The notes beneath the pieces were generated by a model. The model saw only the letters and a list, made by a program, of their open reading frames with translations. It did not search any database and had not been told where the DNA came from. Below, piece by piece: positions 2,095-22,667 of a stretch of DNA of 64,000 bases; the stretch's first letter is position 1; each line of letters starts with the position of its first letter. This DNA is from a virus. The stretch covers positions 1 to 64,000 of the IMG/VR virus record IMGVR_UViG_3300048586_000548; one strand, given 5' to 3'. The position numbers and the translations under genes are program-made.

Positions 2095-2409
2095 GTGACG
2101 TTTCTGAATGCGATACACAACGCGCTCGGCACTGGACTGCGGCTGTACGTGGCAGAGTCCTACGCTCCCGAACCGCACAAGCCCGAGATGGACTGGCTGC
2201 AGAACTACGTGCTGCTGGTGGCCCCCGACATCGAGGCGGCCGCCGAGCTCGCCCGGGCCGAAGCGTCCCGCCCTGGCAGCACGCTGCAGAACGAGCCCCA
2301 CGAGCCTGCGGTGACGCAGATCTGGGTCCGCGACTTTGGCGCGCCTGCGGCGGCGGGGCTGCTTCGCGATCGTGGAACGCTGCTGGTGTGGGCCGTAGAC
2401 GATGCTTGA
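2095..2409 (+). CDS. Hypothetical protein (104 aa)
   Basis: GTG at 2095 is chosen because GCAGGAG lies just upstream; the earlier in-frame TTG at 2077 has no ribosome site. The product has one region like a beta-alpha ferredoxin-like fold (I-E-A-A-A-E-L-A-R-A-E near residue 45), a pattern shared with other small proteins in the window that have a strand followed by an 'A-x-x-A' helix. Its stop overlaps the ATG of 2402, so it is coupled to the three-gene ELYA family. Function unknown. Confidence 0.65.
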   Translation: MTFLNAIHNALGTGLRLYVAESYAPEPHKPEMDWLQNYVLLVAPDIEAAAELARAEASRPGSTLQNEPHEPAVTQIWVRDFGAPAAAGLLRDRGTLLVWAVDDA

Positions 2410-2752
2410 CGAACTCTACGCTACGCTGGGGCTCGCTGCCCCACCGCGCGACCTGCTGGTGTTCCGCTGGAAGGGTGAGGCGCTCGAGCAGGACTGGTGC
2501 GACTACACCCTGGAACCCGGGGAGCGGCCTAGTGCCCGGGCGGACAGGACGCTGATGGCCGAAATGTTCTATCCGGTCGGGGACGGGTGGTTCGCTCCGG
2601 TGCAACGCCACCCACCGCGAGACCAGTGGAAGATCCGGTACGGCTGCGCGCATCCGCGCGACCACCTCAATCAACAGACGATGGAGTGGACCGTGCGCTC
2701 GGTGTCGCTGCCCGAGTGGGTCCTGGACTGGGACGGCGAGCATGCTGGCTGA
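2402..2752 (+). CDS. ELYA-family paralogue 1 (116 aa)
   Basis: First of three tandem paralogues that open with Met-Leu-x-Glu-Leu-Tyr-Ala-x-Leu-Gly-Leu. After this N-terminal helix comes a beta-rich body with a shared G-D-G-W segment (near residue 60) and a C-terminal W-T-V-R-S-V-x-L-P motif. The N-terminal helix also resembles the terminal tag seen on many other proteins here. Coupled by overlap at both ends. No known domain recognised. Confidence 0.75.
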   Translation: MLDELYATLGLAAPPRDLLVFRWKGEALEQDWCDYTLEPGERPSARADRTLMAEMFYPVGDGWFAPVQRHPPRDQWKIRYGCAHPRDHLNQQTMEWTVRSVSLPEWVLDWDGEHAG

Positions 2753-3170
2753 ACTGTATGCGGCACTGGGCTTGCCCGTCGCCGCGCCGACGGACGTGTT
2801 GGCGTTCCGCGCGCTCGAGTCGGGCTACAAGCACCCGCGTTGCCTTCAGGCCGACACCCGGCCGATCGACGTTCCGGCGCTCGACGGCGGAGAATACTTC
2901 GTTCCGATCGGCGAGGGGTGGTACATCATTGTGGTCGCCCATGCGCTGGTGGTCCCGCGCGACGCCGGAGTGCCGCTGGAGAACGGGTGGCTCGTGCGGT
3001 ACGCGGCAGACTACCCGTCGTCCGGGATGAACAACTACCTCTACGAGTGGGCGGCGCGTTCCGTGGTGTTGCCGGACGGCGTGCAGGTCCTGCCCACCTA
3101 CTGTCTCGACGCGCCTGAGCCCTACGACGACGACGACGACTACGACGAGGATCTCTACGATGATGACTGA
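2742..3170 (+). CDS. ELYA-family paralogue 2 (142 aa)
   Basis: Second tandem paralogue. It shares the N-terminal E-L-Y-A-A-L-G-L helix, the G-E-G-W position and the A-A-R-S-V-V-L-P segment with its neighbours. It adds a C-terminal acidic tail of Asp and Tyr built on a short GAC repeat (about 3125-3140). The start overlaps the previous gene by 11 bases and the end overlaps the next by 11, which suggests duplication with coupling retained. Function unknown. Confidence 0.75.
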   Translation: MLAELYAALGLPVAAPTDVLAFRALESGYKHPRCLQADTRPIDVPALDGGEYFVPIGEGWYIIVVAHALVVPRDAGVPLENGWLVRYAADYPSSGMNNYLYEWAARSVVLPDGVQVLPTYCLDAPEPYDDDDDYDEDLYDDD

Positions 3171-3510
3171 GCTCTATGCGGCGCTGGGGCTGACGGCACG
3201 ATGCTGCCGCGCGCTGTGCTTTCAGTGGGATCTGGACCTGATGGAAAGCTGGACGCGGGACCGCATCTTGGGTACCGCCGACAGTCCCCCGGTTGCTGAT
3301 CGCCGCAACCGCGAGCACTACCTGCTCCTGGACGACGGGTGGCACATGGTGGTGCAATACGTCGACGGGCAATGGACGCCAAAGTTCGCGCCGACGAAAA
3401 ACACGTCGACCCTCAACAAAGAGCTCTTTCAGCAGTGGACCGTGCGCACCATCCTGGCGCCTGCGGGGCTGCACGTTCCCGACGAGCACTGGAGTACCGC
3501 ATGTCCCTGA
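3160..3510 (+). CDS. ELYA-family paralogue 3 (116 aa)
   Basis: Third tandem paralogue: M-M-T-E-L-Y-A-A-L-G-L at the N-terminus, D-D-G-W near residue 60 and W-T-V-R-T-I-L-A-P near the end. Two adjacent ATG codons (3160 and 3163) could both serve. It carries an extra Cys pair (C-C) after the helix, absent from the other two. Function unknown. Confidence 0.75.
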   Translation: MMTELYAALGLTARCCRALCFQWDLDLMESWTRDRILGTADSPPVADRRNREHYLLLDDGWHMVVQYVDGQWTPKFAPTKNTSTLNKELFQQWTVRTILAPAGLHVPDEHWSTACP

Positions 3511-3878
3511 ACGATGACATTACCAAGATCCTGGTCCCGAACGCCCCGGCACCGCTACCACCGGGCTGGGCCCCGCCACGCCCGCACGGACGCTACCGTA
3601 TCCGGCTGGACGTGCAGTTCAGCGGCAGCGTGGAACAGGTCGTGGAAGTCACGACCGCGGACCCCAGCGCCCTCGGGTTCTACGAGCTCGCCGAGCTGCT
3701 CGACGTGGCTGCGTTGTCTGCGGAAGATGTGCTCGCCGAGGCGAAGGAGACGGCGGAAGTCGCGGATTACAACTACGACGACGACGCCGAGAACCAGGAC
3801 GAACTCGACGCGTGGGACAAGCAGTTCGCGGACACGCATGATCCGGAGAGCGGTCTGCCGCTCGACGACGACGACTGA
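3501..3878 (+). CDS. Hypothetical acidic protein (125 aa)
   Basis: ATG at 3501 follows GGAG and overlaps the end of paralogue 3. After a proline-rich N-terminus comes a beta strand plus helix like those of other small proteins here. The last 45 residues are very acidic and end in four aspartates. Such tails often mimic DNA or bind basic partners; that is inference. A T-rich gap of 36 bases separates it from the next gene. Confidence 0.65.
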   Translation: MSLNDDITKILVPNAPAPLPPGWAPPRPHGRYRIRLDVQFSGSVEQVVEVTTADPSALGFYELAELLDVAALSAEDVLAEAKETAEVADYNYDDDAENQDELDAWDKQFADTHDPESGLPLDDDD

Positions 3879-3914
3879 CCTTTCCTCTTTTACCCTGTGC
3901 TGGGAGTGCAACGC

Positions 3915-5423
3915 ATGACTGCTCGGTGGATGTACCTGTCGGACCTGGCCCCGCAGGCCAACATCATGAACCTCGAGACCGGGGAGCTACGGTCGATCAA
4001 CAGCGCCGCGGTCAAGGACCGCGCGCCGATCGGGCTCCGCCGGTACGTGCTCGAAGAATCGTCGGGCGGGTCGTACCGGGAGACCGGGGAGTGTATGCCG
4101 ATGACCGAGGAGCTCTTCGCGGAGCTCGAGGACAACATGCGGCTGCCCAACAACTGGAACTACGACTGGCCGCATCTCCAGGTGGAGATCGAGGGTGACG
4201 GCGCGGACCATCCGATCCGCCTGGCGATCCTCGAGCGCCTCAACCGCGAGATGGCCGACCACCCGTACACCTTCCAGGTGACCGGGCTGCAGCGGCGGTA
4301 CTTGATGTACTTCTCCGACGGCAACTACCAGTCGCAGCAGGCGTTCGAGCGGTACGTGCCGCGTCCGGACAGCTCGCCCTTCCGGCGGGACGGCTCGCTG
4401 CGCAAGAAGTACAACTGGATCTGGAACTCGAACATGCGGGACGCCAAGGTGCCGGTGCCCCAGACCGAGTCGAAGCTCTACGGCAACCTCGCGCCGTGCC
4501 TCTACACCGGTCCGGCGTGGGTCGTGCGGTTCCAGCTCGACGGCCAGGACCCGCTGCTCGAGCGGTGCCGCGTGTACGTCACCGACGAGGGCGAGTTCAT
4601 CTGCTCCGACTGGTGCCAGCGGCACGACCAGACCAGCTACGGCGACGGCATCAACCTGCAGCGCGGGATCTACAGTTTCGGCGCCTGGGTGACCGGCCCG
4701 TGCGTGACCTTCGCGTCGGGACGAGGCGGGTTCAAGCCCACCAGCACGACCTTCACGCGTACCGCGGTCAAGGACCTGATCAAGCAGCACGGGCTGCTCC
4801 GGCCGCCGCGCGCCTTCGATGACGTCTTCGCGCAGGCCCAGAAGACCGTGGCGAGCTTCGAGTCGGTGGTCCCGGCCGGTGCGCCGAAGCTGGCGCACGA
4901 CGCCGGAGACATCACGGCGGCGGCGGTGGCCGAGGCGGAAGCTGTGGCCGATGCCCGCCTGGCCGAGGTGGGGGAGACGCTGAAGCTCCCCGAGGGCGTG
5001 GTGCCGCAGTCGCTGCGCTCGGCGGGCCTGAGCCTGTCCAACTACGCGTACTTCGAGGTCGACCTGCCGAGCCACAAGTCTGGCCTGGCCTCGACGCACA
5101 AGCGCGGGGTCGTGGGCCTGAAGCTGAACCTCGACGGCTCGGTGACGGCGGCCCTGGTGAGCAACAAGTTCGGTCTGCCCCAGGAGGCGTACGAAGCGCT
5201 GCGGGTGGCCAGCGCGAACGTTGTCCACGGCGCGTTCGCCGTCAATGCGGACTTCGTGCCGGGCGTCCCGGCCACGAACGCCTGCCCGGAGTTCTGGTAC
5301 CTCGGAGACAGCGAGAAGCCGACCAAGGCGGTTGGCGTCGAGGCGCTGAAGCCGTGGTGGCTGTACGACGCGGCGGTCTACTACCGGGACGCCGTGAGCG
5401 TCCCGGCGGAGCTCGTCGGGTGA
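3915..5423 (+). CDS. Large hypothetical protein (502 aa)
   Basis: ATG at 3915 lies nine bases after GGGAG; an earlier in-frame start at 3897 has less support. No transmembrane segment is seen. It has an Ala/Glu-rich probable helix around residues 330-355 and a C-terminal beta-rich region. The middle section contains cysteines and many aromatic residues. I recognise no domain. It is the largest unknown in this early block and is directly coupled (TGATG) to the paralogous pair 5423/5850, so the three may act together. Confidence 0.7.
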   Translation: MTARWMYLSDLAPQANIMNLETGELRSINSAAVKDRAPIGLRRYVLEESSGGSYRETGECMPMTEELFAELEDNMRLPNNWNYDWPHLQVEIEGDGADHPIRLAILERLNREMADHPYTFQVTGLQRRYLMYFSDGNYQSQQAFERYVPRPDSSPFRRDGSLRKKYNWIWNSNMRDAKVPVPQTESKLYGNLAPCLYTGPAWVVRFQLDGQDPLLERCRVYVTDEGEFICSDWCQRHDQTSYGDGINLQRGIYSFGAWVTGPCVTFASGRGGFKPTSTTFTRTAVKDLIKQHGLLRPPRAFDDVFAQAQKTVASFESVVPAGAPKLAHDAGDITAAAVAEAEAVADARLAEVGETLKLPEGVVPQSLRSAGLSLSNYAYFEVDLPSHKSGLASTHKRGVVGLKLNLDGSVTAALVSNKFGLPQEAYEALRVASANVVHGAFAVNADFVPGVPATNACPEFWYLGDSEKPTKAVGVEALKPWWLYDAAVYYRDAVSVPAELVG

Positions 5424-5839
5424 TGTTGTTCACCGGCACCCTCGACCGCACGATCATGGAGCACTACCCGTACGCGGCGCAGCACGCCGCGACGGGGGAG
5501 GACTTCGAGTACGGGCGCACGAAAGCCATCTCCCCCGCGCCCGTGGTCATCCGGCGGGTGTCGCTGTCGGAACGCTACGAGTGGTACCGGTGCACGCGCA
5601 TGACGAGCGCGGGGGAGCCCCGGGAGGACGCCGTGATCGCCTTCGAGCCCGCCACCGGCGCTTACTGGTTCTGCGGGGGCACCTCCTCCGTACCGCACAT
5701 TCCGTACACCGACCCCCGCCCGCGCAAGGAACCGCTGCGCGCGGGCTGGTGGGCCTCGATGTGCGTGGCCTGGCTGGAACAGCAACGGACCCAACCCCGA
5801 GACCTGGTCGGCGCGCTGCGCGCCGTCCTGCACGGATAA
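5423..5839 (+). CDS. CGG-pair paralogue 1 (138 aa)
   Basis: Paralogous to the next gene. Both share an N-terminal Y/F-P-x-A-A-x-H-A segment, a central T/H-G-x-(Y/F)-W-(F/Y)-C-G-G motif, a W-W-A-x-x-x-A-W-L helix and a C-terminal D-L-(V/L)-x-A-L tag. The motif 'acidic strand, T-G-A-Y' also resembles the D-L-R-T-G-A motif of the 11054-14325 family, so the groups may be distantly related. Function unknown. Confidence 0.7.
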   Translation: MLFTGTLDRTIMEHYPYAAQHAATGEDFEYGRTKAISPAPVVIRRVSLSERYEWYRCTRMTSAGEPREDAVIAFEPATGAYWFCGGTSSVPHIPYTDPRPRKEPLRAGWWASMCVAWLEQQRTQPRDLVGALRAVLHG

Positions 5840-5849
5840 GGAGCAGTCG

Positions 5850-6305
5850 ATGTGGACCGTCAACCTGACCGCGGACGACATTCACGACTTCCCGCTCGCG
5901 GCGCACCACGCATACATGCGGGCGACGTGGCCTGGAGTCTACGAGGACGACGACTCCCTGCCCGAGCTGGACGAAGAATTGGCCTCGCACACGATTCGTG
6001 TGCTCCAGGTGGGGACTACGGGGGACTACACGCTGTACGCGCTGGGCGAGCCGGACGACGAGTACTCGTACGGCACCGGGATCACCTGGGACCGCAAGCA
6101 CGGCGTGTTCTGGTACTGCGGCGGCATTGACTGCTCCTCACCGTGGTCCGACCAAGAACTGGCGGACTACGTGGCACAGAACGCGGACGAACTGCTCGAC
6201 CCGACCTGGTGGGCCGCGCTCGTCGCCGGATGGCTGCACCGGACCCACTGCGCGCCCAAGCCGACGGATCTGCTGTCGGCGTTGAACCAACTTCTTCATT
6301 CTTGA
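5850..6305 (+). CDS. CGG-pair paralogue 2 (151 aa)
   Basis: Second member of the pair, with F-P-L-A-A-H-H-A, H-G-V-F-W-Y-C-G-G, W-W-A-A-L-V-A-G-W-L and the C-terminal D-L-L-S-A-L helix aligning to 5423-5839. A clear AAGGAG ribosome site lies upstream of the ATG. It lies immediately before the E1-like gene; a functional link is possible but unproven. Confidence 0.7.
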   Translation: MWTVNLTADDIHDFPLAAHHAYMRATWPGVYEDDDSLPELDEELASHTIRVLQVGTTGDYTLYALGEPDDEYSYGTGITWDRKHGVFWYCGGIDCSSPWSDQELADYVAQNADELLDPTWWAALVAGWLHRTHCAPKPTDLLSALNQLLHS

Positions 6306-6320
6306 CCCCAAGGAACTCTC

Positions 6321-7010
6321 ATGCAACTCGCACTCGTCGGCTGTGGTTTCGTCGGCTCCGTGTTCACGACCGAAATGCTGAAGCGCTGTTTCGCGGGCAA
6401 AATTCCCCTCGACTTCCACTTCATCGATGACGACACCGTGGAAGCGCGGAACTGCGCCAATCAGAACTTCTCCCAGGCGAACATTGGGCAGCCGAAGGCC
6501 CAGGTGATGCAAGGGTTGGCGCTCGACGCCGACCGAGCGGCCACGTACGTTGCGACGCGGCTGACGCCGGAGAACATCGACGCTCTATTGGGCGACGCCA
6601 CGCTCATCGTCGACGGGGTGGACAACCTCGCCACCCGCCAGCTGTTGTGGGGATACGGCATGCGCACGGGCACCCCGGTGCTGCACATCGGCATCACCGA
6701 GCAGGGCACCGGCAAGGTCGAGTGGACCCATCCGGCGCACCAGACCTTTTCGCTCCGCCCTGAACACACGGCGGGCAAGGACATCCCGGACCCGGCCAGC
6801 GGGGTGACCCCGCCGTGCGAGCTCGCTCGGATGCGCGGCGTGGGCCTGAACGCGGGCTTCGCGGCGGCGTGCGCCGCGGCGATCTACTTCGGGTTCGATC
6901 CCGAGAGCCACTTGAAGGGCGACACCTCGCCCGGGTGGTTGACCGAATGGCACGCCAGCCCGATGGGCTTCCTGCCGCAGACCGAAACCTGGGGGAACGT
7001 GCATGTCTGA
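6321..7010 (+). CDS. E1-like (ThiF-family) adenylating enzyme
   Basis: A 229-residue Rossmann protein of the ThiF/MoeB/E1 superfamily. It shows the nucleotide loop G-C-G-F-V-G-S (residues 7-13), the acidic I-D-D-D-T-V strand (35-40), a lysine at about 59 in G-Q-P-K-A and D-G-V-D-N (98-102). The usual arginine of the N-R-Q motif is replaced: here it reads R-N-C-A-N-Q. A lone Cys near 166 (T-P-P-C-E) is a possible thioester site. The size and I-D-D-D-T-V pattern recall PRTRC-type ThiF proteins. No ubiquitin-like partner is evident next to it. It overlaps the next gene by eight bases. Confidence 0.8.
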   Translation: MQLALVGCGFVGSVFTTEMLKRCFAGKIPLDFHFIDDDTVEARNCANQNFSQANIGQPKAQVMQGLALDADRAATYVATRLTPENIDALLGDATLIVDGVDNLATRQLLWGYGMRTGTPVLHIGITEQGTGKVEWTHPAHQTFSLRPEHTAGKDIPDPASGVTPPCELARMRGVGLNAGFAAACAAAIYFGFDPESHLKGDTSPGWLTEWHASPMGFLPQTETWGNVHV

Positions 7011-8535
7011 CCTGTCCGCGGATATCAAGGGGCTGTTGTCGCCTGCCGCCAAGCCGCCCGCCTCGGCCGGAACCCCGCGCCGCTGGTGGGGCGACGGGCC
7101 GGACGACGAGGGATACTACACCCGGCAGATGTACGGGCACGGTGTGCAGCCGCACAAGCCCACGACGCCGTACCGGCCGCAGACCACGTACGGGTCCGCA
7201 GGCTACCAGAACAGCTACGCGCCGATGCGCGTGGCGGTGGTGCACGCCGACGAGCGGGACGACCGCTACACCATTCCCTACGAGGGACGCGCGTGGTTCG
7301 CCATTGCCTCGACGGTGTGGCCCACGGTCGACAACGTGATGCGCGTGCCGGTGGAGCACTGCCAGTTCACCTACGCGGATCCGCCGTTCAACGCGTGCGT
7401 GTTCACCGCCGCGAACGACTATCTGCAGGCCCGATGGGGCCGCAAGATGGACCACAGCGACCAGCGGTGGTTGGCCCTGCACCCGTACGCCACCGATGGC
7501 GGCGTGCCGCAGGAGTACACCGCCACGTGCGTGCACCAGCTGGTGGCCCCGTACGGCATGGTCGTGAGCCGTGTGCGCTTGCGCCGCGGAAGCTTGGTGC
7601 TGGGCGACTCGGTGATGGCGTGGTTGAACAGCCTGGGCTGCAACCCGTTCGCCATGGCGGACCGCAGCACGACCAACGCCGAGGCCGCCGCCAAGATGGG
7701 TATCACCCCGGCGGAAGCCGATGCGCTCTGGCGGGTGGAGTTCCATGACGATCCGCTGCCCGGCTCGATCATTGGCGAGCGCGGCTGGAGCAACCAGGCC
7801 AGCTCGTCCACTACGGGGAGTGTGGTCACCGGCAACTTCGGTGGGCATGCCCGGTACCTGGCCCCGCGGGGTCGGGCCGGGGACTGGTTCATCTCGGTGC
7901 AGCTCGCCCCGGACGACCGGGTGGAATACTTGGTGCCGCCGCCGGACCCGGCGTACGAGCCGCGCAAGGGCAACCCGACGCTGCTGTACGGCAGTGTCAC
8001 CGGACTGGACGGCCAGCCGATCGCCGTGAAGGACGGGACCAGCTGGCGCCGGGTGGGCGATGCGCCCGCCGCCGCGGCTGGGACGGCCAGCTTGCCCACG
8101 CTTCCGGACGTGCCGAAGAAGCCCGCCGCAAGCCACGGGCATTTGGTCACGTGCGGACTGTGCGCGGAAGACGTGAGCACCGCCGGGGTCCTGCGGGAAG
8201 CGGACGTGTGCTACGAGTGCGCGGAAGCGCTGTGGGACGGCATGGTCTGCCCCCACTGCAAGGTGAGCCTGAGGCGGCAGATCCCGTATCCGCTCACGTA
8301 CAGCATCACCGACCAAGGCCTGGTCGAGGACTACGAGTACAGCTGCAACGCCTGCCGGGAGACGATCGTGTTCCAGTCGTTGGACGCCACGCCCGAGCCG
8401 ACGGAGCACGACTTCATGCTTGAGCACTATCACGAGCTGGTGTTCAACCTCGAGCCGCTGACGGACGACAAGATTGATCAGATCGTCCAGGACGAGCAGG
8501 ACCAGCTCGAGTTCCCACCCACCGACCCGGCGTAA
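7003..8535 (+). CDS. Candidate papain-like cysteine peptidase with zinc ribbons
   Basis: A 510-residue protein coupled to the E1-like gene. The centre has a plausible cysteine-peptidase layout: Cys132 in F-N-A-C-V-F-T-A-A-N at a helix start, then His282 in G-G-H-A-R-Y-L, then Asp294-Trp295, as in C39/papain-like folds. The C-terminal part has four C-x-x-C pairs (384/387, 403/406, 416/419, 448/451), a two-zinc arrangement. The Gly/Pro-rich N-terminus looks disordered. The peptidase assignment is my inference from motif spacing. If right, E1 plus peptidase plus zinc module suggests a modifier-like system. A terminator follows. Confidence 0.5.
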   Translation: MSDLSADIKGLLSPAAKPPASAGTPRRWWGDGPDDEGYYTRQMYGHGVQPHKPTTPYRPQTTYGSAGYQNSYAPMRVAVVHADERDDRYTIPYEGRAWFAIASTVWPTVDNVMRVPVEHCQFTYADPPFNACVFTAANDYLQARWGRKMDHSDQRWLALHPYATDGGVPQEYTATCVHQLVAPYGMVVSRVRLRRGSLVLGDSVMAWLNSLGCNPFAMADRSTTNAEAAAKMGITPAEADALWRVEFHDDPLPGSIIGERGWSNQASSSTTGSVVTGNFGGHARYLAPRGRAGDWFISVQLAPDDRVEYLVPPPDPAYEPRKGNPTLLYGSVTGLDGQPIAVKDGTSWRRVGDAPAAAAGTASLPTLPDVPKKPAASHGHLVTCGLCAEDVSTAGVLREADVCYECAEALWDGMVCPHCKVSLRRQIPYPLTYSITDQGLVEDYEYSCNACRETIVFQSLDATPEPTEHDFMLEHYHELVFNLEPLTDDKIDQIVQDEQDQLEFPPTDPA

Positions 8536-10876: not shown

Positions 10877-11057
10877 GCGTACCTACGCGACCCCCGTCGA
10901 AGCCGAGCAGTACCGCGCGCGAGCGCGGGACCTGGTTGGCTCCGCGGACGGCGTGCTCGTGAGCCGCGTCGGACGGGTCGCGTTGTCAACCCGCGCGTGC
11001 GACGACACCGTCGAAGGCGCCTGGGTACCTGCGTTTGTGTTCGTGGAGGCGGAATGA
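10869..11057 (+). CDS. Small hypothetical protein (62 aa)
   Basis: Overlaps the preceding gene by eight bases and the next by four (ATGA). Basic N-terminal helix, then a short beta-rich part. Nothing identifiable; real by its tight coupling and codon pattern. Confidence 0.55.
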   Translation: MAKRTYATPVEAEQYRARARDLVGSADGVLVSRVGRVALSTRACDDTVEGAWVPAFVFVEAE

Positions 11058-11527
11058 CCTTCGACCCGACAGCGCTGCGTGAATGTATCGCCGACGCCCA
11101 AGCCGCCATGCCTTTTCCGGTGCGCCGGATGGCAGTGTGCTGGGACCGAGATCACCTCTCCCCCAACATCATCGAGTACGAGTTCTTTCCGGAAGGCTTC
11201 GGTCCGTATGGGACGTGTGCGCCCAGCGCGTTGAGTCCGGATGACGTGCGCGCATACTTCGACGACCTGTACGATTACGACGAAGACATCCCCAACTGGG
11301 ACGCCCAGTACGAGCTGGCCTGCCATGTCGCGGATGCCCTCACCCCGGCGGACACACCCGCGTACTGGATGGCCCGCGTTGTGATCGACCTCGAGACCGG
11401 GGAGTATGTCCTGTGCGCTGGGGTGTACGGTGCCGCACCCGGCGATCGGGTCACCGGCGTCTATGCGCCGCGGCCGCTGACGTTCCTGGAAGCCCTGCAC
11501 GCCACGCTGGGCCCGGCGCATGAGTAA
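11054..11527 (+). CDS. DLETG/LRTG-group protein with C-terminal tag (157 aa)
   Basis: Starts at ATGA overlap 11054. It carries an H/Y-E-Y-E-F strand, a D-D-V-R-A-Y-F helix, then V-I-D-L-E-T-G-E-Y and a C-terminal F-L-E-A-L-H-A-T-L-G tag. Closest relative is the next gene: same strand, helix and D-L-x-T-G order. First of six consecutive genes with this 'D-L-R-T-G then terminal helix' plan. Function unknown. Confidence 0.7.
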   Translation: MTFDPTALRECIADAQAAMPFPVRRMAVCWDRDHLSPNIIEYEFFPEGFGPYGTCAPSALSPDDVRAYFDDLYDYDEDIPNWDAQYELACHVADALTPADTPAYWMARVVIDLETGEYVLCAGVYGAAPGDRVTGVYAPRPLTFLEALHATLGPAHE

Positions 11528-11978
11528 CGTTGACCTCCGGGCACAGATTGCCGCCGTCCAACAGCTGCTGCAGCCGCACGCCGATACGCTGGTGGCGGAG
11601 TGCAGTTGGTACTCGGGAGACGCCGACCCCTGCGTGCACGAGTACGAAGTGCACGTGGCGGCCGACTGCCCCGCAGCCCGCCACCTGCAGGACTTGTCGA
11701 TGGAAGACGTGCGCTCAGCCGTGTGGGCGTACTTCGCCGGGATGGACCTCAGCGACACCGGCGAAGCGCTGCAAGACCTGACCTACGATATCGCCGCGGC
11801 CGTGCTGGCGGAGACGATCGCTCCCGGGCAGGAGGCCACGTTCGCGTTCGACCTTCGGACGGGCGCGTATAACGTCTGGGCCCGCCCCTTCGGGGGCGAA
11901 GCGTGGGAGCAAGTCGTCGGGGAACTGTTCAACCCACCCACGAATCTGCTGGACGCGCTCCGGCTGACCCTCAACTAA
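11520..11978 (+). CDS. LRTG-group protein with C-terminal tag (152 aa)
   Basis: Paralogue of 11054-11527: H-E-Y-E-V strand, M-E-D-V-R-S-A-V-W helix, F-D-L-R-T-G-A-Y and C-terminal N-L-L-D-A-L-R-L-T-L-N. The N-terminus also has an amphipathic Leu-rich helix. Overlaps its upstream neighbour by eight bases. No known family. Confidence 0.7.
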   Translation: MSNVDLRAQIAAVQQLLQPHADTLVAECSWYSGDADPCVHEYEVHVAADCPAARHLQDLSMEDVRSAVWAYFAGMDLSDTGEALQDLTYDIAAAVLAETIAPGQEATFAFDLRTGAYNVWARPFGGEAWEQVVGELFNPPTNLLDALRLTLN

Positions 11979-11991
11979 CAAAGGCACTCCC

Positions 11992-12483
11992 ATGGACCCG
12001 ACACATCTGGCCGCCATACGCCTCCTGCGTGACGCAGGCGCGGTCGCGCTGACCTGGGAATTTGAAGGTCGTAACGGCGCCGGGGTCGCCGTCGACCTCG
12101 GCGCGCTGGTCGAGGACGACTTGCCGGAGGCCCTGACCCCCGGCAGCAGCGCGCTCGGTTCCCACTTCGACTCGGCCGAAGAGTGCGTCAACGCCAGCTA
12201 CTCGCTGCAGCACCTGCCGGGCGGACCGGCGGTGCCGTCCCCCGAAGTTGTCGCTGCGTTGTGCTGCTGGCTGCTGTCGACCTACTGGCCGATCGATCCG
12301 TACGGCATGGATTGGCGTACCGGCCACGGCTCGTCAGGCTCGGCTGTGCTCGACCTGCGCACCGGCGCGCTGATTGTCGACGGCGTCCGGTGTGTGCCGA
12401 CGTTCCACCAGAACTACCGCGCGGCCGCGGTGCCGCTCGGCCCGACGACCTTGACGGACACCATTACCGGACTGTTGACATGA
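11992..12483 (+). CDS. LRTG-group, DUF6878-like protein (163 aa)
   Basis: An L-L-R-D-A-G-A-V-A-L-T-W-E-F-E-G opening followed by D-D-L-P-E-A-L, then V-L-D-L-R-T-G-A-L-I-V-D-G. This order (aliphatic helix, W/C-x-F-x-G strand, acidic loop, D-L-R-T-G) is shared with the next three genes and recalls DUF6878. It lacks the W-x-N-N-E-G-G-Y-G motif of 12480 and 13477. The C-terminal tag is degenerate (T-L-T-D-T-I-T-G-L-L). Confidence 0.65.
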   Translation: MDPTHLAAIRLLRDAGAVALTWEFEGRNGAGVAVDLGALVEDDLPEALTPGSSALGSHFDSAEECVNASYSLQHLPGGPAVPSPEVVAALCCWLLSTYWPIDPYGMDWRTGHGSSGSAVLDLRTGALIVDGVRCVPTFHQNYRAAAVPLGPTTLTDTITGLLT

Positions 12484-13019
12484 CCAATCACGTACCGTTC
12501 GGCACACCCGGGTGGCTCGCCGAGTTCCACCAGAAGCAAGCGGAAGCCGCAGCACAACAGGCCGCCGCCTTTGCCGAAGAGCAGACCGCACTGCTTGCCG
12601 CGGGTGTGGTGGCGGTCGGCTGTGAATTCTCCGGCAGCGGCGACGATGGGGAAATCAATGACATCCGCGTGCTGATGGCCGAGGATGTACCGGCGCCGGT
12701 CGCGGCGTCCGTTGATCTGTCCGAGAGCGTTGCGGAGCTGGTCGATCGCGGCTGCGACCCGGCCGACGTGTCGGGAGCCCCCGACCCCCGGGACTTGATG
12801 TACTTCGCCTTGGACCGCTTCGACGGGGACTGGGTCAACAACGAGGGCGGCTACGGCCACGCGCTGCTGGATCTGCGCACCGGGGTGCTGATCATCGACG
12901 GGTACCAGTATGTGCAGCACACGGAAGCTGCCTGGACGGAGTGCAAGTTGCTCGCCCCTGGTGTCGCGACCCCCCGGAACTTGGAGCAGGTCCTGAAGCA
13001 GACGCTGGGGGACACGTGA
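12480..13019 (+). CDS. DUF6878-like protein (179 aa)
   Basis: A full version of the group. After a Gln/Ala-rich helical N-terminus come G-V-V-A-V-G-C-E-F-S-G-S-G-D-D-G, D-G-D-W-V-N-N-E-G-G-Y-G and L-D-L-R-T-G-V-L-I-I-D-G, ending N-L-E-Q-V-L-K-Q-T-L-G. The G-S-G-D-x-G and W-x-N-N-E-G-G-Y-G pattern is what I associate with DUF6878, a family of unknown activity. A near copy forms the second half of 13477-14325. Coupled by ATGA overlap. Confidence 0.7.
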   Translation: MTNHVPFGTPGWLAEFHQKQAEAAAQQAAAFAEEQTALLAAGVVAVGCEFSGSGDDGEINDIRVLMAEDVPAPVAASVDLSESVAELVDRGCDPADVSGAPDPRDLMYFALDRFDGDWVNNEGGYGHALLDLRTGVLIIDGYQYVQHTEAAWTECKLLAPGVATPRNLEQVLKQTLGDT

Positions 13020-13480
13020 GCACCAAGGAATTGGTGGCGCAGCTGCTGGACGCCGGAATTGTTGCGGTGGCGTGGGACTTTGACGGCGAGGACGGCGACG
13101 GTACGATCGACGGGGTGGGCGGGTGTAGCCCCGATGACCTGCCCCAGCCGCTCGTGCCGGGAGAACCGCACACCACCTCCGTGCGGGATCTGTACGACGG
13201 CACGGAAGGCTTGGGCAGCTTTCAGGCATCGCAGTACGGCAACGCGGTGCGTGCGCTGTGCGATGATCTGCTGGTGGCCCACTTCCCGGTGCTCTGGACC
13301 CACGGCGGCGGGACCTACGGGTACGGCGTGGTGGACTTGCGCACCGGGGCGGTCGTGATTGAGGGGCACCAGAGGCTGGTCACAGTCGTGCCCGTGACCG
13401 CGACCACGCACGCGTCCACGGTGCACGCCCCTCCAGCGGACTTGCTCGGAGCGGTGCACCAGGCCCTGGGGTCCCCATGA
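13016..13480 (+). CDS. LRTG-group, DUF6878-like protein (154 aa)
   Basis: GTG start in a GTGA overlap. Shares A-G-I-V-A-V-A-W-D-F-D-G-E-D-G-D-G-T-I, D-D-L-P-Q-P-L, G-Y-G-V-V-D-L-R-T-G-A-V-V-I-E-G and C-terminal D-L-L-G-A-V-H-Q-A-L-G with its neighbours. The N-N-E-G-G part is reduced to T-H-G-G-G-T-Y. This divergence inside one operon points to old duplication. Confidence 0.7.
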   Translation: MSTKELVAQLLDAGIVAVAWDFDGEDGDGTIDGVGGCSPDDLPQPLVPGEPHTTSVRDLYDGTEGLGSFQASQYGNAVRALCDDLLVAHFPVLWTHGGGTYGYGVVDLRTGAVVIEGHQRLVTVVPVTATTHASTVHAPPADLLGAVHQALGSP

Positions 13481-14325
13481 CCCTCGCGCATGGACTGTGG
13501 TACGGCACGCACGGCATGCTGGTGACCAACGCGGCGGGACGCGTGCTCCCCGCGTTGTCCACGTATGACGGCCCGGCGTACGCCACGGTCGTGGCCATCG
13601 ATACCACGGCGCTGCGCGCGTTGTACGCGGCGCATGGGCGCGCGTTCACGTTCGGCGGCGACGTCTTGACGGTAGACCTGATCCACGCCGACGGCTCGCG
13701 CACTCCAGCAGAGCCGGAATGCCTGCAGGACGTGGCCACGTTCCTGGCGCAAGCGGCCGCACTACCACCACCACCACCACCACCAAAGGGCACCCCGATG
13801 TACGATCCGCACACGTGGCTTGAGACATTCAAGCTGAAGGCCGCCGCGACCAAGGCGGCGAAGCAGGCCGAACTGCGCACCGTGCAGGACGCGCTGCTGG
13901 CGGTCGGCGTGGTCGCGGTCGGCTGTGAATTCTCAGGAGGCGGCGACGAGGGGTCGATTGACACCGTGAGCCTGCTCACGACGGAGCACCTGCCCGATCC
14001 GATCACGGACGACTGCGATCTGCCCGACAGCGCACAGACACTCGTGCAAGACGGCCTCGGCACCGACGAGGTGGCGGGCGGTCCGAGCGAGGATGCCGTG
14101 CGGGAGCTGTGCTACTTCGGACTGGAACGCTTCGACGGGGACTGGATCAACAACGAGGGCGGCTACGGCTTCGCGCTGATGGACTTGCGCACGGGGTTCT
14201 TGATCATCGACGGCACGCAACGCACGGAATGCAGCGCCTTTACCGCGTGTCAGCTGCTTGACCCGGTGGCCGCACCCCCGCTGACGTTGGAGCAGGTGCT
14301 CCGCCAGACGCTGGGGGAAACGTGA
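13477..14325 (+). CDS. Fusion: unknown N-domain, polyproline linker, DUF6878-like C-domain
   Basis: The first 95 residues form an unrelated beta-rich domain. Seven consecutive CCA codons (13765-13785) encode a polyproline linker. From Met108 (ATG 13798) the rest is a close paralogue of 12480-13019, with C-E-F-S-G-G-G-D-E-G, D-W-I-N-N-E-G-G-Y-G, D-L-R-T-G-F-L-I-I-D-G and T-L-E-Q-V-L-R-Q-T-L-G. Elsewhere the family starts with its own ATG, so a repeat expansion that removed a stop may have fused two genes. The internal ATG, after AAAGGG, could still be used. Confidence 0.7.
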   Translation: MTLAHGLWYGTHGMLVTNAAGRVLPALSTYDGPAYATVVAIDTTALRALYAAHGRAFTFGGDVLTVDLIHADGSRTPAEPECLQDVATFLAQAAALPPPPPPPKGTPMYDPHTWLETFKLKAAATKAAKQAELRTVQDALLAVGVVAVGCEFSGGGDEGSIDTVSLLTTEHLPDPITDDCDLPDSAQTLVQDGLGTDEVAGGPSEDAVRELCYFGLERFDGDWINNEGGYGFALMDLRTGFLIIDGTQRTECSAFTACQLLDPVAAPPLTLEQVLRQTLGET

Positions 14326-14642
14326 GCTTGACCCGCGAGGACGTGCTGGCGCTCAGTGGACGGGTCGACGGGAGCCGCGTGCGGGTCACGGATCGATGGG
14401 GCGGCAGCACGGTCGGGTATATCGTGCACGCCACGTCAGCGTACTTCGGACTGCGCTTCTACCAGGACTGCTACGGGAGCGACCGCTCGATCTTCTACCA
14501 CGACGTGGTCCGCATCGAAGGCACGCGCAAGAACCGGCGCGGCTACCCGCTCTATTGGGCGAAGACCGCGGTGGTCCAAGACGGCGCGGCGCTGGATCTG
14601 ACCGGCACGCTGCAGAACCTGCTGGCTGGGGCGCAGTTGTGA
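14322..14642 (+). CDS. Hypothetical protein (106 aa)
   Basis: GTG start in a GTGA overlap. A small beta-barrel-like body (D-G-S-R-V-R-V-T-D-R-W-G-G) with aromatic residues, ending in the helix L-D-L-T-G-T-L-Q-N-L-L, a weak version of the shared C-terminal tag. No family known. Confidence 0.6.
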   Translation: MSLTREDVLALSGRVDGSRVRVTDRWGGSTVGYIVHATSAYFGLRFYQDCYGSDRSIFYHDVVRIEGTRKNRRGYPLYWAKTAVVQDGAALDLTGTLQNLLAGAQL

Positions 14643-16308: not shown

Positions 16309-16538
16309 CCTGGTTACCACCCGTCATCGACGATGATGATCGTGTGTTCGAGCGCACCGTCAAGCTAGGGGGCGGGTACGAACTGCGGCTGGCGTTGTGC
16401 ATTCCGCATAACGAGTGTCCAGACTCTACGACGCTGAATACCTACCTGGTCGCCTCCGACGGCACGCTGGTCAACGACGCGCATTACGACTGTGTCTCAC
16501 GCGCTGTTGCGCTTGCTATGGCGGGGGTGCGCAAATGA
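16305..16538 (+). CDS. ALAM-family paralogue 2 (77 aa)
   Basis: Starts M-T-W in an ATGA overlap. Aligns to 16069 along G-G-G-Y-E-L-R-L-A-L, V-A-S-D-G-T-L-V and the terminal A-V-A-L-A-M-A-G-V. A run of four aspartates follows the start. No family known outside this window to me. Confidence 0.65.
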   Translation: MTWLPPVIDDDDRVFERTVKLGGGYELRLALCIPHNECPDSTTLNTYLVASDGTLVNDAHYDCVSRAVALAMAGVRK

Positions 16539-16970: not shown

Positions 16971-17177
16971 ATGCGCACCGCGCGCGCCAAGCCCACGAAG
17001 CAGTTCGAGATACGCGTCACGGAGAGCCGTGAGTATTGGATCACGGTCGACGCGGTGGACAAGGGCGATGCACTACGGCAGGCGTGGGCGATGCAGGGGG
17101 CACTGGACCCCAACGACGCCAATGAGATCCACTTCCACAACGTCGAGTTGATACACGAAGAGGACGACGATGACTGA
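16971..17177 (+). CDS. Small beta-alpha protein, acidic tail (68 aa)
   Basis: Basic N-terminus, then F-E-I-R-V-T and Y-W-I-T-V-D-A strands followed by a G-D-A-L-R-Q-A-W helix, like 16785. The C-terminus ends in Glu-Glu and four Asp. Overlaps 17170 by eight bases. Confidence 0.6.
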   Translation: MRTARAKPTKQFEIRVTESREYWITVDAVDKGDALRQAWAMQGALDPNDANEIHFHNVELIHEEDDDD

Positions 17178-17490
17178 CTTGCTGACAACCATGCACGCCA
17201 CCCTGGGCGGTGCCCCACCCCAGCAGGTGTGGTACCTCGAGGCGCGTTCGGACGAATTCGACGACTACGTCTGCGAACTACCCGACCACAACGAGCGGGG
17301 CGGCTACGTGCGGATCACCATCGAGTATGAGGACGGCACGGACGAGGCGCTGAATGCGAGCGTGGCGCTGGTGCTGAATTCCATCCACGGTGAGGAGATC
17401 GCGGAGTGCTACGGCACGCTGTCGCTGGAGCACGCGCTCGCGATGACGGGTGCTCCGGCGGTGCGGACGGTGTCCAATGGCCACACCTGA
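17170..17490 (+). CDS. ALAM-family paralogue 3 with N-terminal tag (106 aa)
   Basis: Carries two shared modules: an N-terminal M-T-D-L-L-T-T-M-H-A-T-L-G-G helix matching the terminal tag on many neighbours, and a C-terminal L-E-H-A-L-A-M-T-G-A-P as in 17477. The centre is a beta-rich I-T-I-E-Y-E-D-G-T domain. It therefore links the tag-bearing and ALAM families. Confidence 0.65.
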   Translation: MTDLLTTMHATLGGAPPQQVWYLEARSDEFDDYVCELPDHNERGGYVRITIEYEDGTDEALNASVALVLNSIHGEEIAECYGTLSLEHALAMTGAPAVRTVSNGHT

Positions 17491-18270: not shown

Positions 18271-18286
18271 TGAGCCCCACCCCCGC

Positions 18287-18330: not shown

Positions 18331-18342
18331 TTTGGAGTGTTC

Positions 18343-20241
18343 GTGTCCGCTACTGATCCCCTACCCTTTGGCAAGTTCGCTGGGCGTACCCTCGCCAGTT
18401 TGGCGCAAGGCGCCGAGGGCGAGCAAGGCTACGTCCGGTGGATGGCCGCCAACTTTCGGGACGGCCCCTGGAAGCAGGCGGCCACCGACGCGTTGGCGGT
18501 ACAGGTCGACGCCGAGCCGATCGCCGCCACGACCTTGCAGGTCGGGTGCGTCGACGACCGGATGGCCTGGATCGACTACCCCTACGACCCCGCGGTGACC
18601 GCCGCGCTGCGGAGCGCCATCGATGGGCTGAACTGGCACCGCGCCTCGCGCCGGTGGCTCTTCCCCCGGGCGCAGCTGCTGCGTCTGCTGGATCGCGTGC
18701 AGGCGCTGGGGCACGCGGTCGATTTGACCACGGAGGCTGCGGACGCAGTAGCGGCGGAACGCGCGCGCCGTGCGACCCTCGACACCATCCGGGCGCAGGG
18801 GTCCAGTGGACTGCAGGTGCCCACGGTGCTGCCGTTGTTTCCGTTCCAGACCGTCGGCGTCGAATTTGTCCTGGCTGCTGGGGGTCGCGCCGCAATCACG
18901 GACGAGATGGGCCTCGGCAAGACCCCGCAAGGTATTGGCGTCTGCTTGATGCTGTCCCAGCAGCAGCAGATCGAACGCACGTTGGTCCTCTGCCCCGCGT
19001 CGCTGAAGATCAATTGGTACCGGGAGTTCCGCAAATTCGCGGATCTCGAGGCTACGATCTGGTCCGGCAAGAAGGTCGTGGGCGACCGCACCGGGCCCGT
19101 GCATATCGTGAACTACGACATCTTCCCCCGGTTCCGGGAAGAGTTCGAGGAGCTGGGCATTGACTTGCTCATCGCCGACGAAGCCCACTACCTGAAAAAC
19201 GGCGACAGCCTGCGCACCCAAGCGGTGTTCGGCGGCACCAACAAGAAGCGGAAGCGCGTGGCGCCGTTTGCGGTACCCTACGCGGTGTTGCTGACCGGCA
19301 CCCCGGTGTTGAACCGGCCCGGCGAGATGTACTCGCTGCTGCACTACTTGTATCCCGATCGGTTTCCGGACTGGTACTCCTTCGCCAACCGGTACGGCGC
19401 CTTTCCGCCAGGCAACCTGCGCGGGCTGCCCAGCACTCCGCGGAACCTGGACGAACTGCACGAGCGCACCAAGGACGTCGTGATCCGCCGCCGCAAGGCG
19501 GAGGTCATGCCGGAGCTGCCGCCGCTGCTGGTCAGCGAGCTGTACGTCGAGTTGTCCGCCACGCAGCGCAAGGCCTATCAGCGCCTGCTGGGAGACCTTG
19601 CCACCGAGTGGACCAAGGACGCCAAGGCCAAGCGTCGGCCGTCGCTGCAGCAGCTGCAAGTGCTGACCGCATTCTTGAACGAAGTCAAGCTCGTCAAGGT
19701 GCGGGAGCTGCTGGCGGAATTGCTGGCGGATGAGGGCCGACAAGTCCTGGTGTTCTGCACCCGTCTGGCTCCGCTGCAAGCGCTGCGACAAGAGCTCGGC
19801 GACCAGGCGATGTACATCGACGGCAAGATGTCCCCCACCGCGCGGATGGCAGAAGTCGACCGCTTCCAGGCGGGGTTGGCCCGCGCGGCGCTGCTGTCGA
19901 TCCGGGCCGCCGGGGTCGGGTTGACCCTGACCAACGCCGACGTGGGCATCTTCATCGACCAGGACTTTGTTCCGGCGACGCACCAGCAGGCCGAGGCCCG
20001 CGCCCACCGGTTTGGGCAGGTCAACCCCGTGAACATGTACTACGTGCTGGTCGACGATACGATCGACATCGACTTGCGTGCCTTGCTGGCGGAAAAGCTG
20101 CTGGTGACCAGCCAGGTCACGGACGGTATGGCCGAAGACTCGGCCCGGCTGCAGTCGGTCTTCACCGACTTCGTGCGCCGCTTGCGCGCGCGCTACACCC
20201 AATTTGCCGAGGTCTTGGACCCGGGAGACAATGATGACTGA
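18343..20241 (+). CDS. SNF2-family DNA helicase, SMARCAL1-like
   Basis: A 632-residue SF2 translocase. The N-terminus has F-G-K-F-A-G-R-T-L with Y-V-R-W-M, a small module also found at the C-end of ExoX-like nucleases. Next comes a stretch like a HARP domain (Y-P-Y-D-P ... L-N-W-H ... R-R-W-L-F-P), as in the annealing helicase SMARCAL1. Helicase motifs follow: D-E-M-G-L-G-K-T, D-E-A-H, L-T-G-T-P and A-R-A-H-R-F-G-Q. GTG 18343 is chosen for its TTGGAG site. Likely acts in phage replication or fork repair. Confidence 0.9.
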   Translation: MSATDPLPFGKFAGRTLASLAQGAEGEQGYVRWMAANFRDGPWKQAATDALAVQVDAEPIAATTLQVGCVDDRMAWIDYPYDPAVTAALRSAIDGLNWHRASRRWLFPRAQLLRLLDRVQALGHAVDLTTEAADAVAAERARRATLDTIRAQGSSGLQVPTVLPLFPFQTVGVEFVLAAGGRAAITDEMGLGKTPQGIGVCLMLSQQQQIERTLVLCPASLKINWYREFRKFADLEATIWSGKKVVGDRTGPVHIVNYDIFPRFREEFEELGIDLLIADEAHYLKNGDSLRTQAVFGGTNKKRKRVAPFAVPYAVLLTGTPVLNRPGEMYSLLHYLYPDRFPDWYSFANRYGAFPPGNLRGLPSTPRNLDELHERTKDVVIRRRKAEVMPELPPLLVSELYVELSATQRKAYQRLLGDLATEWTKDAKAKRRPSLQQLQVLTAFLNEVKLVKVRELLAELLADEGRQVLVFCTRLAPLQALRQELGDQAMYIDGKMSPTARMAEVDRFQAGLARAALLSIRAAGVGLTLTNADVGIFIDQDFVPATHQQAEARAHRFGQVNPVNMYYVLVDDTIDIDLRALLAEKLLVTSQVTDGMAEDSARLQSVFTDFVRRLRARYTQFAEVLDPGDNDD

Positions 20242-20572
20242 TCTGGTCCAGGCGGTGAGCAACGCCCTGAACCCCAAGCCGGTCGAGCGCCTGCGCTCGT
20301 TCCGCATGAGTGTGGTCGGGGAGCTCTGCTTCACGGTGTACGCCAAGAACGCCGACGATGCGGTTACGCAGGGAGAGCGCGTGCTGGAATACTTGGACGA
20401 CATCGATCTGATGCCGCCGGTGTCGCTGTCTCCAGCCGACGCCGCTGCGTATGGCCTGAACCCATGCGCCATGCACCTTATGGCGTATCACGCTCCGTAC
20501 ACGGAGCCTGTCGTCGCGGAGTACAACCCGGATGACGACTGGACTGAGGACGACTGGGAGGTTTTCCCATGA
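20234..20572 (+). CDS. DDA-family paralogue 1 with N-terminal tag (112 aa)
   Basis: N-terminal M-T-D-L-V-Q-A-V-S-N-A-L-N helix, then strands and an N-A-D-D-A-V-T-Q-G-E-R-V-L helix. 21371 and 22353 have the same order and lie nearby, forming a third duplicated family. ATG 20234 is preferred over the adjacent ATG 20231 because GGGAG then lies six bases away. Coupled to the helicase by overlap. Confidence 0.65.
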   Translation: MTDLVQAVSNALNPKPVERLRSFRMSVVGELCFTVYAKNADDAVTQGERVLEYLDDIDLMPPVSLSPADAAAYGLNPCAMHLMAYHAPYTEPVVAEYNPDDDWTEDDWEVFP

Positions 20573-20760
20573 AGCCCGCCCAGCTGGTGGCCCTCGCGAT
20601 TGCCATCGCCGACGCGCTCGACCGCGCGGACTTGTTGAACCACCAACGGACGGACGATCCGGCGGGGGAGGCGATTGACGTGGTGCACGGCGTCCTGGTC
20701 CGCGTTGCGAAGCAGAAGAAGAAGAAGAAGAAGAAGAAGAAGAAGGGGAACACCTCATGA
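20569..20760 (+). CDS. Small protein with ten-lysine tail (63 aa)
   Basis: Begins with a helical A-L-A-I-A-I-A-D-A-L segment and ends with ten consecutive lysines (residues 50-59) encoded by uninterrupted AAG codons (20716-20745), then G-N-T-S. A pure triplet repeat of this kind is prone to slippage, so the tail length may vary. A polylysine tail suggests binding to nucleic acid or acidic partners. Coupled on both sides. Confidence 0.6.
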   Translation: MKPAQLVALAIAIADALDRADLLNHQRTDDPAGEAIDVVHGVLVRVAKQKKKKKKKKKKGNTS

Positions 20761-21220: not shown

Positions 21221-21381
21221 TGTCGGATCCCAACACCCCACCTGAGGGCGTCGACTACTGGGCCGACGATCCCCAGCACCCGGTCGCGGAATGGCAAATC
21301 GAAGTCGCAGATGGCGACACCCGCCAGGGGTACTGGGCGTGGGTCGCTGTGCGGCGACTGTTGTGTGCCGATGACGATTGA
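21220..21381 (+). CDS. Small acidic protein (53 aa)
   Basis: ATG shares a base with the preceding TGA. Acidic, with several tryptophans (G-Y-W-A-W-V-A-V), ending in Ala followed by three Asp. Its end overlaps the next gene by 11 bases. Supported only by tight packing and codon pattern. Confidence 0.5.
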   Translation: MSDPNTPPEGVDYWADDPQHPVAEWQIEVADGDTRQGYWAWVAVRRLLCADDD

Positions 21382-21682
21382 TCTCCAGGACCCGCTGATC
21401 GCGGCGTTGTGCGGGCAATTCGAGATCCCCACGCACGCGCGGACCTACCAGGTGGTGCTCCCGAGCGAGCTCACGTTCGTGGTCTCCGCGTTCAACAGCG
21501 ACGATGCGCTCGCGCAGGGCTTGCGGGTTGCCGCGACGCTGCACGCCTTGGGGCGCGGGCCCGCGTGGCTCGACCTGCCCAAGCTGGCCGCGGCGCAGCA
21601 TGACGTCCGGCTCGCGCGCTTCCTGGCGTCGGCGATGCCCCTCCCCAACGCCGTTCCGGCGGCGGTCACCTTGCTCCCTTAA
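21371..21682 (+). CDS. DDA-family paralogue 2 with N-terminal tag (103 aa)
   Basis: N-terminal D-L-Q-D-P-L-I-A-A-L helix, L-T-F-V-V-S-A-F strand and N-S-D-D-A-L-A-Q-G-L-R-V helix align with 20234 and 22353. Function unknown; the conserved S/A-x-D-D-A-x-x-Q helix is the family marker. Confidence 0.65.
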   Translation: MTIDLQDPLIAALCGQFEIPTHARTYQVVLPSELTFVVSAFNSDDALAQGLRVAATLHALGRGPAWLDLPKLAAAQHDVRLARFLASAMPLPNAVPAAVTLLP

Positions 21683-21696
21683 CCCCCGAGCTGCCT

Positions 21697-21981
21697 ATGG
21701 AGGTCCGACTAGGACCCCGCGCGTCTGCCGAGCTGGACGCCCTCCCAATGCGTGAACAGAAAGCTTTCCGCAAAGTCATGGAACGCTTTCGTGGTGCCCC
21801 GCCGGACGCGCGGCGGCAGATGCTCACAGCGATGTACGCGCCTGCTTTTCGCGACCGCGGGGTGACGCACGCCATTCGCCTGAACCGGAAGTACCGGATT
21901 CTGGTCGGGCGTGCGGACGACACGTATGTCGTGGAAGGCGTGGTTTCTCGCGGCGACAGCCGCTTCTACCGATCGGAGTAA
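21697..21981 (+). CDS. RelE/ParE-superfamily toxin-like protein
   Basis: A 94-residue protein with an N-terminal strand, an F-R-K-V-M-E-R-F helix, then H-A-I-R-L-N-R-K-Y-R-I-L-V-G and a Y-V-V-E-G-V-V strand. This is the order of RelE-like mRNA interferases, where 'R-x-x-x-x-x-R-I-L' carries catalytic basic residues. No antitoxin-like gene is adjacent: 21984 and 21371 do not look like one. It could be a degenerate toxin or a host-takeover RNase. Confidence 0.55.
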   Translation: MEVRLGPRASAELDALPMREQKAFRKVMERFRGAPPDARRQMLTAMYAPAFRDRGVTHAIRLNRKYRILVGRADDTYVVEGVVSRGDSRFYRSE

Positions 21982-21983
21982 GT

Positions 21984-22220
21984 ATGGAAGCACCCGCCCA
22001 CGCCCCCAATGTTGGGGGGACGCTACTGGTGTGTTGGACCAACGCGGCCCTTGGTCCGGGAGACGAAGCCACGGACCACTACGAAGTATTCCGCTGGGAT
22101 CACCCCCAACACGAGCTCGAGCAGGTGGTCGCCGCCCAGGCGCGGTACCAAGCATTGGTGCAAGCTGGGGCCACGATCGTGTCCTTGGCGCGCGTCGAGC
22201 GCTCCACCGACTACCCGTGA
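21984..22220 (+). CDS. Small hypothetical protein (78 aa)
   Basis: Starts two bases after the RelE-like stop. Short beta part followed by a helix E-L-E-Q-V-V-A-A-Q-A-R-Y. It lacks the DNA-binding pattern expected of an antitoxin. Ends in a GTGA overlap with 22217. Confidence 0.5.
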   Translation: MEAPAHAPNVGGTLLVCWTNAALGPGDEATDHYEVFRWDHPQHELEQVVAAQARYQALVQAGATIVSLARVERSTDYP

Positions 22221-22372
22221 GCCCGCCGGGTGAGCACCCTGTCCACACCCGAATGCGGTGGTCGATGAGCATTTGCTGCGGCGGCCCCTGGATGCTGTAC
22301 GCCGAGTGGGTCGCCGTCCAACAACACGCCGCGCTGATCGCGCAGGGGAACTATGTCGGACCTCGTAGCTGA
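22217..22372 (+). CDS. Small hypothetical protein (51 aa)
   Basis: GTG in a GTGA overlap. Contains C-C-G-G and an aromatic helix. Its end overlaps 22353 by 20 bases, and GCAGGGGAA inside it serves as the ribosome site of that gene. Weak candidate supported only by gene packing. Confidence 0.4.
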   Translation: MSPPGEHPVHTRMRWSMSICCGGPWMLYAEWVAVQQHAALIAQGNYVGPRS

Positions 22373-22667
22373 AGTGACTGCCGCGCTCGGGCAGCTGAAG
22401 CGCATGTGCTACCGAGCGGAGATCCCGGCGTCTGTGTTTGTGGACGTGTGGGCGACTTCCGTCGACGACGCCTTTGCGCAGGCTCGCGGGCTGGGGAGCA
22501 TTCTGCATGACGTCTGGAACCCAAGCTTGGTAGAGACCGATCCCGAGTACACCGCGGCGGAAGGCGTGCATTCGCCGGTACTCAACGCCGTGGTAGTGCC
22601 TGCCGACAACCCTGCGCAGCATGAGATCGTCCTCACGTACACCGCCGCGTACATCGGAGAGCTGTAA
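22353..22667 (+). CDS. DDA-family paralogue 3 with N-terminal tag (104 aa)
   Basis: M-S-D-L-V-A-E-V-T-A-A-L-G tag, then V-F-V-D-V-W-A-T-S strand and V-D-D-A-F-A-Q-A-R-G-L helix align with 20234 and 21371. The C-terminal half differs. TAATG overlap with the next gene. Confidence 0.65.
   Translation: MSDLVAEVTAALGQLKRMCYRAEIPASVFVDVWATSVDDAFAQARGLGSILHDVWNPSLVETDPEYTAAEGVHSPVLNAVVVPADNPAQHEIVLTYTAAYIGEL

Follow-up and report, generated by a model that had tools for sequence, protein, structure and literature searches.

A short amphipathic terminal helix shared by about 25 small proteins of one virus, a candidate docking tag

Why would small viral proteins with different bodies begin or end with the same short segment? 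The question is raised by the window, the 64,000-base stretch of an uncultured bacterial virus analysed here (bases 1-64000 of a 93,493-base IMG/VR record, GC 0.656), in which a first-pass annotation pointed to about 16 proteins sharing a terminal amphipathic element and proposed that it docks them to one scaffold. Our own gene calls recover every gene that it listed, with the same starts and ends. Megablast of the window against 50,697 phage records returned no match, searching IMG/VR with the 3915, 7003, and 18442 proteins yielded matches in the same virus only, and an IMG/VR scan with a helicase alignment (A8) returned distant helicases only. Two more IMG/VR records of the same virus, from metagenome 3300048587, overlap the window's record: G002 (locus L076), 100% identical over the compared loci, and G001 (loci L074 and L075), 99.99% identical. 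They add 3,066 bases upstream of the window and ~28 kb past the end of the record. According to our gene calls, the plus-strand arm comprises small genes and DNA-metabolism genes, and the long minus-strand arm holds the largest proteins and a candidate capsid gene.

The tag is a helical segment of ~11 residues at one terminus of ~25 small, mostly unrelated proteins of this virus (Table 1), with the consensus [D/T/N]-[L/F]-[L/V]-x-A-[L/V/I]-x-x-[L/T/A]-L-G. Its alignment covers 11 columns (0-10), of which column 9 is Leu in 27 of 28 tags, columns 1, 2, and 5 are L/F, L/V, and L/V/I, respectively, column 4 is often Ala and column 10 often Gly; small residues are common at columns 4 and 8. The tags are amphipathic (mean hydrophobic moment 0.54 versus 0.26 for the background) and slightly acidic (mean net charge -0.75, with 0.32 K/R per tag). 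A role as membrane anchor is rejected, the tags being acidic and devoid of a basic face, in contrast with the basic polar face of the membrane-targeting amphipathic helices of the MinD/FtsA type. The adjoining Pro/Ala linker is short, Pro amounting to 20.6% against 5.6% in the background (3.7 times).

Table 1. Genes carrying the terminal tag, with borderline cases. Scores are leave-family-out bits; the next column gives the number of control termini, out of 525, that reach the score.
Gene (strand)	Terminus	Tag	Tag position	Bits	Controls	Remark
2095..2409 (+)	N	MTFLNAIHNALG	2098-2130	19.4	0/525	TFLNAIHNALG after Met
2402..2752 (+)	N	MLDELYATLG	2402-2431	9.1	1/525	
2742..3170 (+)	N	MLAELYAALG	2742-2771	7.2	3/525	2402 paralogue (alignment)
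3160..3510 (+)	N	MMTELYAALG	3160-3189	4.3	13/525	2402/2742 paralogue
5423..5839 (+)	C	DLVGALRAVLHG	5801-5833	17.2	0/525	
5850..6305 (+)	C	DLLSALNQLLHS	6267-6299	16.0	0/525	
7003..8535 (+)	N	MSDLSADIKGLLSPAAKPP		6.2	6/525	510 aa, tag-like start; borderline, uncertain member
11054..11527 (+)	C	TFLEALHATLGPAHE	11480-11512	17.0	0/525	
11520..11978 (+)	C	NLLDALRLTLN	11943-11975	9.1	2/525	
11992..12483 (+)	C	TLTDTITGLLT	12448-12480	12.8	0/525	
12480..13019 (+)	C	NLEQVLKQTLGDT	12978-13010	7.4	5/525	DUF6878 protein
13016..13480 (+)	C	DLLGAVHQALGSP	13439-13471	21.9	0/525	DUF6878-like
13477..14325 (+)	C	TLEQVLRQTLGET	14284-14316	8.9	2/525	DUF6878 protein; tag kept in relative
14322..14642 (+)	C	DLTGTLQNLLAGAQL	14595-14627	13.8	0/525	Syntenic gene in relative also tagged
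17170..17490 (+)	N	MTDLLTTMHATLGG	17176-17208	15.4	0/525	
20234..20572 (+)	N	MTDLVQAVSNALNP	20240-20272	13.0	0/525	
21371..21682 (+)				6.3	6/525	Weak tag; probably not a member
22353..22667 (+)	N	MSDLVAEVTAALGQ	22359-22391	16.2	0/525	
Seven-gene array, G001, ext 24691-26864 (ext 1 = G001 base 56000)	C	TFLDHLQAVLQ, AFVNYLQGLLQ, TFVDALQEVLG, DFLTVVTQALQ, DLLSAVQAVLQ, TLLGTLQELLR, TLISALERLLQ				Outside the window
u-1880, u-1623, u-334						Upstream; numbered relative to window base 1

Eleven residues of a generic amphipathic pattern hold little information, and the likeness was assessed with profiles against 525 termini from four control phages of high GC content, together with 150 termini of the virus's own minus strand. 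When a gene's own body family is removed from the training, 24 of 188 plus-strand termini score at least 8 bits, versus three of 525 control termini (Fisher 5e-12) and one of 150 minus-strand termini, which bears out the common element on different bodies. The tag list was partly picked by eye and the fairest tests are therefore two single-family profiles. The first (A6), trained on no tags other than the six C-terminal ones of the DUF6878-like paralogues, reaches at least 6 bits in 20 of 182 plus-strand termini versus six of 525 controls (p 4e-8) and two of 150 minus-strand termini (p 2e-4). It assigns 17.0 bits to the N-termini of 2095 and 17170, and also picks the N-terminus of 20234, the C-termini of 5423, 5850, and 14322, and proteins of the seven-gene array. 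The second (J7) was trained on the array alone, seven proteins encoded outside the window and hence unseen by the first-pass annotation; it reports at least 8 bits for 13 of 181 plus-strand termini versus one of 525 controls (p 2e-7), none of 150 minus-strand termini, and six of 1379 internal 20-mers. Eight N-termini matched the C-trained model where composition-preserving shuffles predict 0.68. Residue order thus counts, beyond Leu/Ala content. All-against-all pairwise comparison reports strong C-C and N-N sharing and weak N-C sharing, barely above shuffles, so the identity of the N- and C-terminal tags depends on the profile test.

Fifteen of the genes originally listed keep their place, 3160 among them because its paralogy to 2402 and 2742 is clear despite its low own score, the tag being nearly invariant across the trio; 21371 is probably not a member, and the set comes to ~25. 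The tags of 11992 and 14322, described earlier as weak, are both strong. Overlooked at first was 2095. Outside the window lie three upstream genes and the array, which is beyond the record in G001 and comprises seven tandem genes of 79-94 codons, all tagged at the C-terminus. Of the upstream genes, two are small paralogues with the N-terminal segments SHVGALIQLLG and SHVDAVTRLLG, and the other carries EIVGAIQAAVHG near its C-terminus, with eight residues behind it. The 3501 gene is unsupported as a member (1.0 bit). A second C-terminal element is shared by the products of 17170-17490, 17477-17989, 16069-16308, and 16155-16538, with the ends LEHALAMTGAP, LDAAVAMTGAP, TAALAMAGLST, and AVALAMAGVRK in this neighbourhood (17170, 17477, 16069, 16155), and the small protein encoded at 20569-20760 has the C-terminal end VAKQKKKKKKKKKKGNTS with a lysine run.

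That the bodies differ is true in part: they fall into ~9-11 families, and many members are paralogues, so that the tagged genes do not represent 16 independent events. The genes from 11054 to 13477 are largely one paralogue group, with 11054 and 11520 as remote members, 5423 and 5850 form a pair, and 2402, 2742, and 3160 a trio. Pfam, PHROGs, and PADLOC searches with the tested bodies returned no function besides DUF6878 (PF21798, cut-off 24.3 bits), which is assigned to 13477 (42.5 bits, 7.5e-11) and 12480 (38.1 bits, 1.8e-9), 13016 staying just under the cut-off (21.4 bits). In 12480 the domain ends at residue 149 out of 179 in total. Most DUF6878 proteins of 35 other phage loci stop soon after the domain and a few have other tails; the tag was looked for in these proteins and not found, and six DUF6878 proteins from bacterial genomes are all devoid of it. 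The tagged 12480, 13477, and 13016 therefore differ from most of their relatives elsewhere. Of the bacterial proteins, those of Alphaproteobacteria (L078-L082) mostly bear long Asp/Glu-rich tails near the place of the virus tag.

IMG/VR record 3300032116_000082 (G003; 94,271 bases, GC 0.59) shares with this virus a candidate capsid protein (75% identity), another minus-arm protein (79%), the DNA polymerase (65%), and the helicase (58%), and is on these sequence identities a true relative. Its contig begins inside the tagged array, of which two tagged genes are visible: a DUF6878 protein with the C-terminal end DVTTVLRSTLGIT, and the next gene, which occupies the place of 14322 with the same overlap and ends with DMPSIIRAVLTTPR. 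A model trained without the homologous family scores these tags at 7.8 and 7.4 bits, each reached by four of 525 controls. The homology between 14322 and its counterpart is weak in sequence (local E 0.026), the relation resting mainly on position. Over 13 residues, the tag is 54% identical between 13477 and its G003 relative versus 33% for the body, and 46% versus 34% for 12480; between 12480 and 13477 the values are 77% and 52%. No extra tag conservation is observed between 13016 and G003 (23% versus 25% for the body). In a second relative, G004, the sequence ends before the tagged arm. Comparison with G003 also bears on the B12-type ribonucleotide reductase encoded at 31687-34692, which comprises 1001 residues with a LAGLIDADG_3 match inside against 657 residues for its counterpart; the internal match suggests an inserted intein.

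Could the segment simply be a structural helix, packed against the body of the protein that it terminates, in a few old paralogous families, the cross-family likeness reflecting the usual look of helices (D/T/N and G caps) and within-family descent? The abundance of paralogues and the weak N-C pairwise similarity would fit, as would the AlphaFold2 model of the array protein 25510, a small beta-alpha body with a helix at residues 81-89 (pLDDT ~72). However, the model of 12480, built from an alignment of 31 sequences, reports a separate tag helix (residues 168-176) with a pLDDT of ~63, below that of the body (80-98 over most blocks). Moreover, Pro-rich linkers lie between tag and body, most DUF6878 relatives end without the tag, and the profile matches span families and both ends, far above control termini and internal segments. 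We consider this self-packing helix an unlikely account. Fold comparisons of two tagged proteins with the PDB, and of one also with BFVD, returned nothing significant. The helix, the Pro-rich linker, the absence of the tag from most outside homologues, and its retention in the relative support its description as a modular element.

The C-terminal likeness might instead arise at the DNA level, from ribosome-binding sites overlapping the gene end and from ATGA/GTGA stop-start overlaps with the next gene. Indeed, the array end QEVLG* is encoded by CAGGAGGTGCTGGGATGA, and the conserved Q/E/G columns can encode a Shine-Dalgarno-like sequence. Yet C-terminal tags occur where no downstream gene overlaps (5423, 5850, 11520), N-terminal tags exist as well, control phage C-termini rarely score, and the Shine-Dalgarno position falls downstream of the core columns F/L-L/V-x-A-L. 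Such overlap, which may account for no more than a few columns in the C-terminal tags, is largely refuted as a full account and has hardly any chance of being one. Recent fusion, shuffling, or copying of tag DNA is also disfavoured: codons of identical tag residues agree across families at 0.445 versus 0.428 expected from codon usage. Since synonymous codons have diverged to this expectation, the tags are not recent copies; old gene fusions may have been their origin. As for a degradation or turnover signal addressed to a host or phage protease, the terminal position would suit it and early regulatory proteins are often short-lived, but known degrons are usually end-specific, this tag occurs at both ends, and by eye no known degron consensus is recognised in it, which makes this reading very improbable.

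We favour a modular docking helix through which all carriers dock on one common partner, and give this reading a probability of about one half. The acidic amphipathic helix, held by its Pro/Ala linker, would bind a hydrophobic groove on that partner, a phage or host protein present in the infected cell, and the variable small domains of ~25 early or middle proteins would thereby be gathered on it. This presumes that the tag forms a helix in the cell, binds a single partner, and recruits the bodies. Docking to one scaffold appears to be the most economical reading of the sequences, as it would explain the position at either end, the linker, the conservation of the tag above the body in most pairs, the independence from the body family, and the near-confinement to the non-structural arm. 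The virion, one of the scaffolds first proposed, is disfavoured by the location of the tags, as almost all supported ones belong to the non-structural plus-strand arm; in the minus-strand arm, which holds the structural genes, the single terminus of at least 8 bits is N-terminal and belongs to 36282, which is not among the recognised structural genes. A phage compartment, also proposed, is disfavoured in the form of a bacterial microcompartment (BMC): no PF00936 shell domain match was returned at E up to 10 in the three, possibly incomplete, records of this virus (G000, G001, and G002). A BMC shell may be host-encoded.

Alternatively, the tags could bind one another, in homo- or heterotypic oligomers or mixed helical bundles that need no separate scaffold. 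The same amphipathic pattern and the small residues at columns 4 and 8, suited to helix packing, point that way, as does the lack of any scaffold candidate or BMC shell domain among our matches; nevertheless, three helix turns are short for a stable bundle by themselves and the sequences display no complementary charged positions, and we doubt this explanation. Returning to the docking helix, a more specific and tentative version would make the tag a private viral address, collecting ~25 small, fast-changing proteins on a self-made hub or compartment as encapsulation peptides do. Most small early phage genes lack a known function or recognisable relatives. The common tag offers a direct handle on them, and one pull-down could give a common partner for roughly one in four plus-strand genes of this virus.

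The literature searched, with most subscription journals outside its coverage, returned no phage system of matching kind. The closest working analogue is provided by the encapsulation peptides of BMC cargo proteins (PduP, PduD, PduL etc.), to which we do not claim that the tag belongs. These are amphipathic helices at the N- or C-terminus of unrelated cargo, joined by a flexible linker and with hydrophobic residues on one helix face (PMC11157265). The virus tag resembles them, by sequence and prediction, as a short terminal amphipathic helix with a linker. However, they span 15-20 residues against a core of ~11 columns here, no cognate shell domain was found in G000, G001, or G002, and the carriers here are small phage proteins in which no enzyme domain is recognised. 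A parallel is found in the control phage Zuko (Streptomyces; L066, MN204493), where eight small proteins encoded at 34497-41823 have a common terminal element, H-x2-C-x-H-x2-T-K-x-A-R-A-x-C-R or, in a looser form, H-x2-C-x-H-x2-T-x2-A/M-R-x2-C/A. It is N-terminal in six of them and near the C-terminus in 40318 and 40884. Both phages place one short element at either end of small proteins, although the Zuko element is unrelated in sequence, Cys/His-rich, basic, and probably metal-binding. Taken alongside the virus tag, it suggests that private terminal tagging may be a wider phage habit, searchable across genomes.
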